From positions 1 through 64,000 of the forward strand of contig JAQXDL010000041.1 of the NCBI GenBank assembly GCA_029251375.1: a stretch of DNA of 64,000 bases, in the 5' to 3' direction. The translations under genes were made by a program, and so were the position numbers. This stretch comes from Pseudomonadales bacterium. GTDB lineage: Bacteria > Pseudomonadota > Gammaproteobacteria > Pseudomonadales > Azotimanducaceae. This document shows positions 45,866-49,973 of the stretch, piece after piece (position 1 is the stretch's first letter; each line of letters opens with the position of its first letter). The notes beneath the pieces were generated by a model. The model did no database searches. It worked only from the letters and a program-made list of their open reading frames with translations, and was not told where the DNA came from.

Positions 45866-47158
45866 TTAGATCGACAGGTCCTTCAAATTATAATCGCGGA
45901 TGATTGTCTGCCAGTTTTTATCATTGAAGCGAAATTCATCCTCACGTCCATGTAGCGGTTTGTAATCGTAGCGGTTTTCGGTGGGATAACACTGAGCACG
46001 CGCATCGCTTGCAACGCTAATCACCTTCGAACGGTCTTCAATTCGCTGTTCGTCGTAAACCTCAGATTCGGTTTGGCTTAACGCTCCGGTCGCACCCAGC
46101 ACAGAGCTATAGCGATGAAAACCGAAGGTCAACGAGATGCGTTGATCTGGCGAGGTGTTAGCGAAAGAACAATGTAATGCCTGCCTATTAACGATCGTCA
46201 CATCACCCGGCTGACAAAAAAGCGGCACTGCATCTGGTAGTTGCTCAGAACCCGCATTGTCCGCAACCAATTTTTTGATATCAATCTTGCCAAGCTTGTG
46301 ACTACCCGGCATAACCCAAAGACAGCTTCTTGCTGACGTCTCATATAATTGAACCTGAAAGTTAAAACCGTGAATACCCTGATCCCAATTCGGTGAGTCC
46401 CAATGGGTCACTCCATCTTGATGCCAAGATACCGAACCACCAACACCGGGCTGCTTCACAAAGATGGCATCGTTGTAAGGAACAAAGTCATCACCGTTGA
46501 TCGAGGCCGCAATCGATAAGAGTTTTGGATGGCCATAGAGACGTAATCCAGCCTCCATAATCTGGCACATACCACCCATGATAAACACAACCTTGTCCGG
46601 CGCTTCAGATTCTGGTCTCGGCTGATTCATTTGGGTTTGGTGACGACCGTTTAACTTGTCGGTGCCGCCCCAGGGGTCTGTCAAAGGACGAATAAGGGAA
46701 TAAACTGGCCTGGCGAATTCCTGCCCAAAAGCTGGCCTACCAAGATGATCGACCGTCGCGCCATTATCAACCGGCGCTCTGTCGAGTAGATCGGCCATAG
46801 CCGATTGCAATAATTGAATCTCAGCTTGAGCAACAAGACCTTCAAACACGTAAAAGCCTGTTTGCCAGTACGCCTCCAAAATCTCGTCAACCAGCTTACC
46901 GTCTGCCTTAAATCTTGCGGGACCACGATTACCTAATGCTAACGCGCGCGCTTTACCGGCTTCGACATAATCGGTAAGGCTCGCGGCGTGATCGCTTGCC
47001 ACTTGCATACGGGGTGTATCTTCTACGGACATTGTCATTCCATTTCTCAGTGATTCAACCTTTTTTGTATCTTCTGCTTTCAGACCTAAGATTTCAATTC
47101 CAACGTTTGAATGAACTGTTTCAATGAGCGGTTTCAGTGAAGAAGACGCATCCCACAC
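45866..47158 (-). CDS. Phytanoyl-CoA dioxygenase (PhyH) family protein
   Basis: A 430-residue 2OG/Fe(II) oxygenase with HQD in SWHQDGVTHWD, PGSHKLG and the distal His in ALHCSFANTS, followed by Arg (DQRISLTF). The first ~40 residues before MTMSVED are not part of the PhyH domain, and ATG 47032 or 47038 may be the true start. It probably hydroxylates a small metabolite. Confidence 0.85.
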   Translation of the reverse strand: MWDASSSLKPLIETVHSNVGIEILGLKAEDTKKVESLRNGMTMSVEDTPRMQVASDHAASLTDYVEAGKARALALGNRGPARFKADGKLVDEILEAYWQTGFYVFEGLVAQAEIQLLQSAMADLLDRAPVDNGATVDHLGRPAFGQEFARPVYSLIRPLTDPWGGTDKLNGRHQTQMNQPRPESEAPDKVVFIMGGMCQIMEAGLRLYGHPKLLSIAASINGDDFVPYNDAIFVKQPGVGGSVSWHQDGVTHWDSPNWDQGIHGFNFQVQLYETSARSCLWVMPGSHKLGKIDIKKLVADNAGSEQLPDAVPLFCQPGDVTIVNRQALHCSFANTSPDQRISLTFGFHRYSSVLGATGALSQTESEVYDEQRIEDRSKVISVASDARAQCYPTENRYDYKPLHGREDEFRFNDKNWQTIIRDYNLKDLSI

Positions 47159-47263: not shown

Positions 47264-47470
47264 ATGAGAGAACTTACTATTGATGAGATTCAACAGGTCA
47301 ACGGCGGCTTTGGCCCAGCAGTTTATGGCGCGATTGTTTTAGCCGGTAGGGTTGCTGCGAGTCCTACAGCACGAGCTGCAGGACTCGGCGCGCTGGGCGG
47401 TTTCGCCGAAGGGTTTGGCGGACAAGTAGCAGGTGCAATTTCTTCTAAAATCAAGGATATGCTGAAATAG
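47264..47470 (+). CDS. Microcin-like peptide precursor with double-glycine leader
   Basis: A 68-residue precursor with a good GGGAG seven bases before the ATG. The first 15 residues, MRELTIDEIQQVNGG, are a textbook double-glycine leader of the class II microcin type (ColV- or MccL-like). The 53-residue core is Gly/Ala-rich with GxxxG-like spacing (GLGALGGFAEGFGG) and a basic amphipathic end (SSKIKDMLK), suited to membrane insertion. Export would need a peptidase-containing ABC transporter, which is not in the window. The following membrane protein is a candidate immunity gene. Target unknown. Confidence 0.75.
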   Translation: MRELTIDEIQQVNGGFGPAVYGAIVLAGRVAASPTARAAGLGALGGFAEGFGGQVAGAISSKIKDMLK

Positions 47471-48109: not shown

Positions 48110-48850
48110 CTATTCGCCCTTAAACTGCGGCGTTCGCTTTTCCTTAAACGCTGCTCGACCTTCCGCGCCATCTGCACTGTTACTCACACCTAACAATTGA
48201 TCGCGGGCGAGTGCGGCTATTTCAGCCGGTCCTTTGGGCACTGTATCAGATACAAAACTCTTAATGGTCTCAACGACTAACGGCGCACTCACAGCAAAAA
48301 TATCAGCGTACGCTTGCGCTGCGGCGAGCTGTTCGCCCAACGGCACAACTTTGTTAACCATGCCAACTTCATAGGCTCTTTGCGCTGATAGGTCCTGTCC
48401 CAGAAGCATAAACTCCATCGCGATTTTATGCGGTATCTTCGCCGCACAACCCGCGATCAAGCCTCCGGTAAAGCCCACCTGCGCCTCTGGATATTTGAAA
48501 ATTGTGTTGTCTGCGGCAATCACCAAATCACACATTTGCACTAAAATATAGGCACCACCCACACAGTAACCTTGTACGCAGGCAATGATCGGTTTGTTAG
48601 TCACAACACCGACGCCGGGCACACCCTGCCACATTTCTTTTGGCGGACTTTTGATGTCAGCACCAACAGAAAAAGCACGATCACCCTCAGCGCAGAGAAT
48701 TGCGCTGCGCGCATCACTCGCATCAAACGCTTGCAAGGCGCGACGCAAACCCTGAATTGTTTCTTCATCCAGGGCATTGAGCTTTTCAGATCGATTGAGC
48801 CGAATAATCGCGGTGCTATTTTGTTCTGTGTATGTCACGACATCGGTCAT
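48110..48850 (-). CDS. Enoyl-CoA hydratase/isomerase family protein
   Basis: About 246 residues from ATG 48850 (MTDVVTYTEQ). Crotonase-fold signatures are RLNRSEKLNALD, AFSVGADIK (first oxyanion-hole strand) and CVQGYCVGGAYILVQMCDL (second). It catalyses hydration or isomerisation of an acyl-CoA. It follows the selenoprotein gene by four bases, so they form an operon. Confidence 0.88.
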   Translation of the reverse strand: MTDVVTYTEQNSTAIIRLNRSEKLNALDEETIQGLRRALQAFDASDARSAILCAEGDRAFSVGADIKSPPKEMWQGVPGVGVVTNKPIIACVQGYCVGGAYILVQMCDLVIAADNTIFKYPEAQVGFTGGLIAGCAAKIPHKIAMEFMLLGQDLSAQRAYEVGMVNKVVPLGEQLAAAQAYADIFAVSAPLVVETIKSFVSDTVPKGPAEIAALARDQLLGVSNSADGAEGRAAFKEKRTPQFKGE

Positions 48851-48854
48851 TTTA

Positions 48855-49973
48855 CTACCCCTTAAAACCCTCGTTATAATTCTCCGCCCCTTCACGTTTG
48901 ATGTCCGCTAACCAATCACCCTCATAGGGCCAGTCCTCTGGATTTTCAGGGTTAGGTCCTTGCCAAAAGCGGCTAATGGGCCCATCACCTAACTTCTCCA
49001 ATGACCAGGCTTGCCGGCGGAAAGTCCAACTATCTGGCACCAACTCGTGGGCTAATCGAAAGTGCTTAATGGCTAGTGCATGATTGCCATCCATCTCCAA
49101 CTGCGTGGCCAATTCAAAATGCGCATGACCAAGCGCTGTATCTTCGTTTCTGGGTCGTGATCGCTGTACCACCTTGTCTTCATCCATAGCGTATTCACTT
49201 GCACTACCCTTGGCGACCCAATCACGCAAAGCGGCATGATAGTCGACAGAGCTATTTGGAATCTTCACCGCCTCACCCATCATCTCAACCAATCTTGGTG
49301 GCATTTCCGCCGGCAGATCGATGTTCGGTCCGGTATCTTCGGACGCGTCTTTAGGGGGTGCGGGCGCTGCTTCAGCGGGACGCACGATATTGCCCTGTTC
49401 ATCAATCCAGATACTACTGGGTATGTTGACCACACCGAAGAGGTCCGCCATAACATGATGTTGGTCAATCAATGAAGGATGTTGCGGTTGCGCCGCTTCA
49501 ATAAAATTACGACAACCATCGGCGCCCAATGTATCTAGACCAACAGTAACCAGTTCAAAACCTTGTGTGTGTAGTTCTTGTCTGAGTGCTTGCCACACGG
49601 GCAAGTCGCCAGAGCATCCTCAGTAGGGTGCCCAGGCATAAACGAGTACTTTTTTGCCCTTCAAACTGGACAACTTGAATTCGTTGCCGTCGACATCGGG
49701 TAGCGTTAGTTCAGGCGCTTTGGCTGAACTTAATGCACGTCCACCAATTGAATCTGGACCCATCGCCCAAAGCTGCGCCTGGGGCTCATGCGCCAACGGC
49801 AGGTTCATGGCGCTCGCCACTTCAGATACATTGAGCCTGCCAGAGTCAGCATCAATACTTGTTTCAGGCAGCGGAATACAGATATCGCCCTTACATGCAC
49901 CTTCAGGTTTGATTGCCCAACCTGTGCCTAATTCGAAATCAGTTTTAGAAACTGAGAGAGACTTTAATAACAT
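48855..49973 (-). CDS. Selenoprotein: thioredoxin-like domain with U-G-C motif, TGA-coded Sec, and C-terminal repeat region
   Basis: One 372-residue gene with an in-frame TGA at 49620-49622. The surrounding residues read AWAPY-U-GCSGDLPVW, matching the WAxxCGC active site of a family of TlpA/redoxin-like proteins; Sec118 replaces the first Cys and Cys120 is the partner. Upstream LTLPDVDGNEFKLSSLKGK is the thioredoxin-fold entry. The C-terminal half includes a TPR-like stretch (HAHFELATQLEMDGNHALAI). A SECIS hairpin follows at the right distance. No signal peptide is seen. It likely acts as a thiol-disulfide or peroxide reductase. The alternative of two broken genes is less likely because both sides fit exactly. 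Confidence 0.88.
49589..49605 (-). promoter_or_regulatory. SECIS element of the thioredoxin-like selenoprotein
   Basis: On the minus strand CTTGCC-CGTGT-GGCAAG forms a perfect six-pair stem with a five-base loop, starting 20 bases after the TGA at the loop. The loop CGTGT is nearly identical to the CGTGA loop of the GrdB-like gene, as expected for recognition by the same SelB. Confidence 0.78.

Follow-up and report, generated by a model that had tools for sequence, protein, structure and literature searches.

Selenoproteins with a UGC motif have been catalogued under several names. The 2008 GOS selenoproteome lists a 'Prx-like (UGC-containing)' family with the domain pfam00578 (PMC2398784), a later catalogue has 'UGC-containing Prx-like protein' (PMC9312934), and a further one has 'UGC-containing TlpA disulfide reductase family protein' (PMC13188914). 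The proteins so named, like the one described here, combine a pfam00578 or cd02966 domain with the UGC motif, and they originate from both marine and nonmarine samples; most of the selenoproteins listed in PMC9312934 are described there as bioinformatic predictions whose functions are not clear. In NCBIfam, the curated family NF041054 (WAxxUGC_long) bears the name 'ResA-like WAxxUGC motif-containing protein'. The catalogued UGC-containing Prx-like/TlpA family is probably the same as NF041054 or overlaps with it, judging by motif and domain rather than by aligned sequences. The term 'WAxxUGC' was not found in the literature searched, nor was 'ResA-like' together with selenoprotein and selenocysteine, and the main text of PMC5029168, which a 2026 review cites for the UGC family, contains none of the four terms on the family that we sought; additional literature searches yielded no more about it.

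The stretch of DNA analysed here, further referred to as the window, comprises 64,000 nucleotides (positions 1-64,000 of contig JAQXDL010000041.1, assembly GCA_029251375.1) from a Pseudomonadales bacterium of the Azotimanducaceae. Its minus strand carries a gene that we consider almost certainly a complete member of the curated family NF041054 and a selenoprotein. As this family is already curated and a UGC family is present in the catalogues, the gene does not represent a new selenoprotein family, and the novelty is low: it is an additional member of a known family, correctly picked out of raw sequence. It provides a clean, well-supported example of a selenoprotein gene split by ordinary ORF calling, and its practical value is that of correct annotation.

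A gene split at an in-frame TGA

ORF calling yields two minus-strand ORFs in the same frame, 49973-49620 (117 aa, ending at the TGA) and 49604-48855 (249 aa, starting at a later TTG); a preliminary description of the locus had predicted such a split by gene callers. When the TGA is translated as U, both ORFs become one protein of 372 aa, with no second stop before the terminal one (Table 1). Residue 118 lies in the context YAWAPYUGCSGDLPVWQ, and the preliminary description had correctly located the TGA at the first Cys of a redox motif; its coordinates are confirmed as well. It had also pointed to family-like sequence on both sides of the TGA, and indeed the matches to Pfam AhpC-TSA (54.7 bits, residues 85-197), Pfam Redoxin (50.4 bits, residues 84-198) and NF041054 (482.8 bits with the cut-off of 300; residues 1-368, profile positions 1-350 of 354) all span it. 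The WAxxUGC motif of NF041054 is present, its U being supplied by the in-frame TGA (49622-49620).

We estimate the probability that the UGA at residue 118 is read as selenocysteine at about 0.97. This reading, already proposed in the preliminary description, is supported by the conserved TGA, the sel genes of the genome, a covarying hairpin and the match to NF041054.

Table 1. Positions of the gene, its predicted elements and the adjacent gene in the window
Feature	Position	Strand	Description or basis
UGC-motif selenoprotein gene (predicted)	48855..49973	-	372 residues and stop; single in-frame TGA taken as selenocysteine
N-terminal module, residues 1-80	49734..49973	-	C27 and C32 (C-x4-C); without a strongly hydrophobic stretch
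ResA/TlpA-like thioredoxin-fold domain, approximately residues 80-200	49374..49736	-	Invariant N183-I184-P185; Pfam, PDB sequence and fold comparison
TGA codon, residue 118, predicted selenocysteine of WAPYUGC	49620..49622	-	Translation and homologue comparison
TGC codon of residue 120, the presumed resolving Cys of U-G-C	49614..49616	-	Invariant in 16/16
Candidate SECIS hairpin	49589..49605	-	Stem of 6 bp, CUUGCC/GGCAAG; loop of 5 nt, CGUGU; UGA-loop spacing 20 nt
Weak TPR-like stretch, residues 284-314	49032..49124	-	TPR_2 17.1 bits, Pfam cut-off 27
Enoyl-CoA hydratase/isomerase gene	48110..48850	-	ATG 4 bases past the selenoprotein stop

Protein architecture and possible redox role

The selenoprotein was modelled with AlphaFold on the basis of its alignment to 15 of the 21 relatives described below (mean pLDDT 75.3, pTM 0.64). 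The model consists of an N-terminal module, the thioredoxin domain and, at lower confidence, a helical C-terminal part. Positions invariant in all 16 aligned proteins include W114, residue 118, G119, C120, C27, C32 and N183-I184-P185, the latter presumably being the cis-Pro loop of the fold.

The N-terminal module is the least understood part of the protein. In the model, C27 and C32 lie on two adjacent strands, E25-28 and E31-33, which are predicted to form a hairpin, and the pattern G-x-C-x4-C is found upstream of the motif in 50 of the 52 distinct sequences; as the two misses, L008 and L009, differ only at a residue before C-x4-C, the Cys pair itself is present in 52/52, in Sec and Cys forms alike. 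Folded alone, the module reaches a mean pLDDT of 85.3. A search of PDB with it gave no matches at E <= 0.001, and the fold comparison gave a single chain with Z >= 2 (Z 2.8, 3.9 A, 51 residues), although the absence of a confident PDB match does not show that the fold is new. The highest mean hydropathy of a 19-residue segment starting within residues 1-40 is 0.33 (Kyte-Doolittle), which speaks against an anchor. Since no strongly hydrophobic N-terminus is seen, we tentatively place the protein, unlike ResA and TlpA, in the cytosol.

At the other end of the protein, 14 of the 16 family members match TPR_2 with E no higher than 0.01, and the C-terminal region contains no DNA tandem repeat. The preliminary description had suggested a C-terminal repeat region that makes the domain layout unusual. 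The repeats are reduced to one sub-threshold TPR-like hairpin; within the layout, the N-terminal 80 residues are the more unusual part.

The protein probably performs a thiol/selenol oxidoreductase cycle with U118 and C120. In such a cycle, the selenol(ate) of Sec118 would attack a disulfide or peroxide substrate, Cys120 would resolve the product to a Se-S bond (the U-G-C selenenylsulfide), and this bond would be reduced again by the N-terminal Cys pair or by an external reductant, e.g. thioredoxin. A redox part for C27 and C32 is possible but doubtful; alternatively, they could be structural. It is rather unlikely, though conceivable, that the C-x4-C module serves as an internal redox partner and returns the selenenylsulfide to its reduced form; if true, the protein would be a self-contained electron relay whose partner domain has a fold not yet solved.

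Alternatively, the protein, while still being a selenoprotein, could be a peroxiredoxin-like peroxidase rather than a disulfide oxidoreductase. AhpC-TSA is its top Pfam match, peroxiredoxins appear in the fold comparison at Z of about 15, and the older catalogue name in the 2008 study is likewise that of a Prx-like protein. Peroxiredoxins have the signature P-x3-[ST]-x2-C at the peroxidatic residue. This signature is absent from all 52 distinct sequences (0/52), and structures of the ResA, TlpA and DsbE type come first both by sequence and by fold; hence we regard the peroxidase function as unlikely and retain the oxidoreductase cycle as the preferred one.

Decoding of the UGA

The two ORFs given by standard calling would also be obtained if the TGA were a true stop, be it in a pseudogene, by a sequencing error or between two separate genes. 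We rejected this reading, which is very improbable, as relatives have TGA at the same codon in both the GTDB and the 150-genome sets, and the protein is conserved on both sides of it (16-way alignment, mean column identity 70%). In the GTDB genome contigs there are 21 related loci, of which 20 cover the motif (L022 is a C-terminal fragment), and TGA occupies the same codon in 20/20. By their titles, L015 and L019 belong to Acidimicrobiales, one locus is assigned to Proteobacteria only, and the others are from Gammaproteobacteria or subgroups; the closest relative, L002, titled as OM182 clade, has 97% identity over the best segment.

In 150 genomes of Azotimanducaceae we found 41 matches above the NF041054 cut-off, located in 40 genomes, so that 40 of the 150 sampled genomes retain the gene. 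Of the 41 matches, 40 contain a single TGA without any further stop, and one match has no stop at all. The motif could be read in all 41 and has U in 40 and C in one, i.e. either Sec or Cys at the same position throughout; for matches below the cut-off, it was read in the retrieved loci only. As the two sets share some records, their TGA counts are not independent. The stop-free match, L073 (WASWCGC, 306 bits to NF041054), is the Cys homologue whose absence the preliminary description had named as possible counter-evidence.

When 114 genomes of the class were searched with the Cys form at E 1e-30, there were matches in two, G240 and the genome of the window itself, and a second Cys form was not found; the N-terminal 82 residues used as a query at E 0.001 matched the same two of 229 genomes. 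The homologue in G240 again has U, in GSYUGC. Thus, the gene appears to be rare outside Azotimanducaceae in the samples searched.

The preliminary description had noted a hairpin just after the TGA, within 49589-49622, and a six-pair hairpin is indeed found there, at 49605-49589. According to PMC13188914, bacterial SECIS elements have a loop of 3-9 nt, an upper stem of 4-16 bp, a G among the first two nucleotides of the loop, a spacing of 16-37 nt between the UGA and the loop, and an energy of at most -7.5 kcal/mol. Checked singly, the hairpin passes every one of these published constraints (loop 5 nt, stem 6 bp, 20 nt), and the folded stretch of 24 nt has -8.0 kcal/mol.

We compared the hairpin in 41 distinct WAPY/WSPY sequences, which are left of the 52 distinct sequences once the Cys form and the 10 WSSW/WASW forms are set aside. 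All six pairs are standard and the loop is CGUGU in all of them (n = 41), and seven sequences read later, four of them new to the 41, also keep the six pairs and the loop. At one pair we observed C-G in 34 sequences, T-A in 7 and crossed combinations in none (Fisher p 4e-8, without correction for kinship): Leu is encoded by TTG with an A-ending codon opposite in the 7 and by CTG with a G-ending codon in the 34, and the encoded residue changes on neither side of the stem. At the outermost pair, 34 sequences have C-G, 4 have T-G and 3 have T-A (n = 41), and two further pairs vary one-sidedly through Gln/Arg and Pro/Ser exchanges, with a G-T pair retained. The codon choice is also restricted: the Val that follows the motif has the codon GTG in 41/41, with 14/32, 1/24, 2/36 and 6/39 in the other four Val columns of the stretch, and Pro is CCC in 30/30, with 27/41 and 10/27 in two other Pro columns.

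In the remaining forms, the Cys homologue L073 has one pair broken and the loop CACCU; the seven WSSW paralogues have the loop CGUGU and pair at the four inner positions; and the three WASW forms (L077, L083 and L084) have all six pairs with the loops AGUUU or AGGUU. The WASWUGC forms make a third subgroup, with another SECIS loop on the same six-pair stem. L076 (YASWUGC) and L099 (GSYUGC), which were missed by the motif pattern and are in neither the 52 nor the 41, both have U, all six hairpin pairs and C-x4-C.

Folding energy alone is no evidence for the hairpin. A stretch of 56 nt has a folding z of -0.68, its minimum-energy structure being a different one, and the short hairpin has a mean z of -1.3, with 16% of synonymous variants folding at least as well; no Rfam family reached its gathering score in the window. 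An unremarkable energy would suit a true stop, but the covariation at synonymous sites argues against it. If the UGA is indeed read as selenocysteine, SelB and tRNA-Sec would decode it with the aid of this hairpin, whose loop starts 20 nt downstream.

The preliminary description had proposed a search for selA, selB, selC and selD, and all of them are present in the window's genome (99.61% complete, 51 contigs): SelA (523.6 bits, C24:18301-19407), SelB adjacent to it (420.1 bits, C24:19452-21332), SelD (273.7 bits) and tRNA-Sec (60.1 bits, C12:1838-1927), the latter called by ARAGORN as tRNA-SeC with the anticodon TCA. That the UGA is read as another residue, by reassignment or by plain read-through (e.g. 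as Trp or Cys), is the least probable alternative, with nothing besides the open frame in its favour, while the genome has SelA, SelB, SelD and the TCA-anticodon tRNA-Sec, the UGA is at the position of the redox Cys, where the stop-free above-cut-off homologue has Cys, and the gene contains no further in-frame TGA.

The co-occurrence with SelA is uninformative, because SelA is above the cut-off in 131 of the 150 Azotimanducaceae genomes. Against the selenocysteine reading speak some of the 40 genomes that carry the TGA form: four (G041, G048, G061 and G087) have no SelA match, and four (G018, G027, G066 and G136) have SelA fragments or weak matches only. In six of these eight SelA-poor genomes that were examined, SelB is above the cut-off in none (0/6) and tRNA-Sec in two (2/6). 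These are presumably gaps in draft genomes, and G087 perhaps lacks the selAB stretch; as selA adjoins selB in the window's genome, a single missing stretch would presumably take out both. In G087 (L074 and L086; 8 contigs, 93% complete), the TGA form is accompanied by a sub-threshold tRNA hit of 45.8 bits that ARAGORN calls tRNA-SeC, without a SelA match and without an above-cut-off SelB.

A separate observation concerns the SelD match of the window's genome (L039, G000:C49:2697-3575, outside the window), whose open frame runs to 731 aa as compared to 311 positions of the model; the overlong frame suggests a fused domain.

Paralogues, genomic context and comparison with known systems

Two WSSWUGC paralogues with one TGA each are found in the window's genome outside the window, at C39:103893-104822 (locus L071, G000:C39:101893-107000) and C22:18204-18818 (locus L072, G000:C22:16500-21000). 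With approximately 235 bits to NF041054, both stay short of the 300 bits required, and none of the further NCBIfam models listed for them at E 1e-5 attains its own cut-off. Judging by these scores, the WSSWUGC paralogues may need a family model of their own.

The genomic context yields no clue to the function or the substrate. Co-transcription of the selenoprotein gene with the adjacent enoyl-CoA hydratase gene is possible (the Pfam query for the latter began one codon ahead of its ATG). We compared 20 loci, the window and L002-L020, some of which have short flanks, and no family of neighbouring genes recurs widely among them; enoyl-CoA hydratase is nearby in 4/20, in one case upstream and in another in a near-identical relative. 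Other genes of the window include a PhyH-type dioxygenase (45866-47158, minus strand), a cytochrome P450 (55642-56991, minus strand) and a 68-aa ORF (47264-47470, plus strand) starting MRELTIDEIQQVNGG, a possible leader peptide of the double-glycine kind found in bacteriocin-type precursors.

The biological value of the gene lies in the presumed U-G-C chemistry, the N-terminal Cys-pair module and the diverged paralogues under the NF041054 cut-off. Compared with NF041054, the protein is a full-length match with an identical motif, and there is no difference on anything the model tests. It shares AhpC-TSA with the peroxiredoxins of the AhpC/TSA type and differs from them in the missing signature. 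Among structures, the thioredoxin domain is closest in fold to 3gl3_B (best Z 18.6, 2.4 A, 140 aligned, 23% identity), with ResA 2f9s_A at Z 18.0 (2.7 A, 137 aligned, 23% identity), and TlpA 1jfu_A is the best PDB sequence match (48.2 bits). The HMMER alignment to TlpA places U118 opposite the first Cys of CxxC and Cys120 opposite the second. Where ResA, TlpA and DsbE have CxxC, the selenoprotein has U-G-C, one residue shorter, and in comparison with them it adds the N-terminal C-x4-C module and the C-terminal helical part, whereas an exported N-terminus is not seen.
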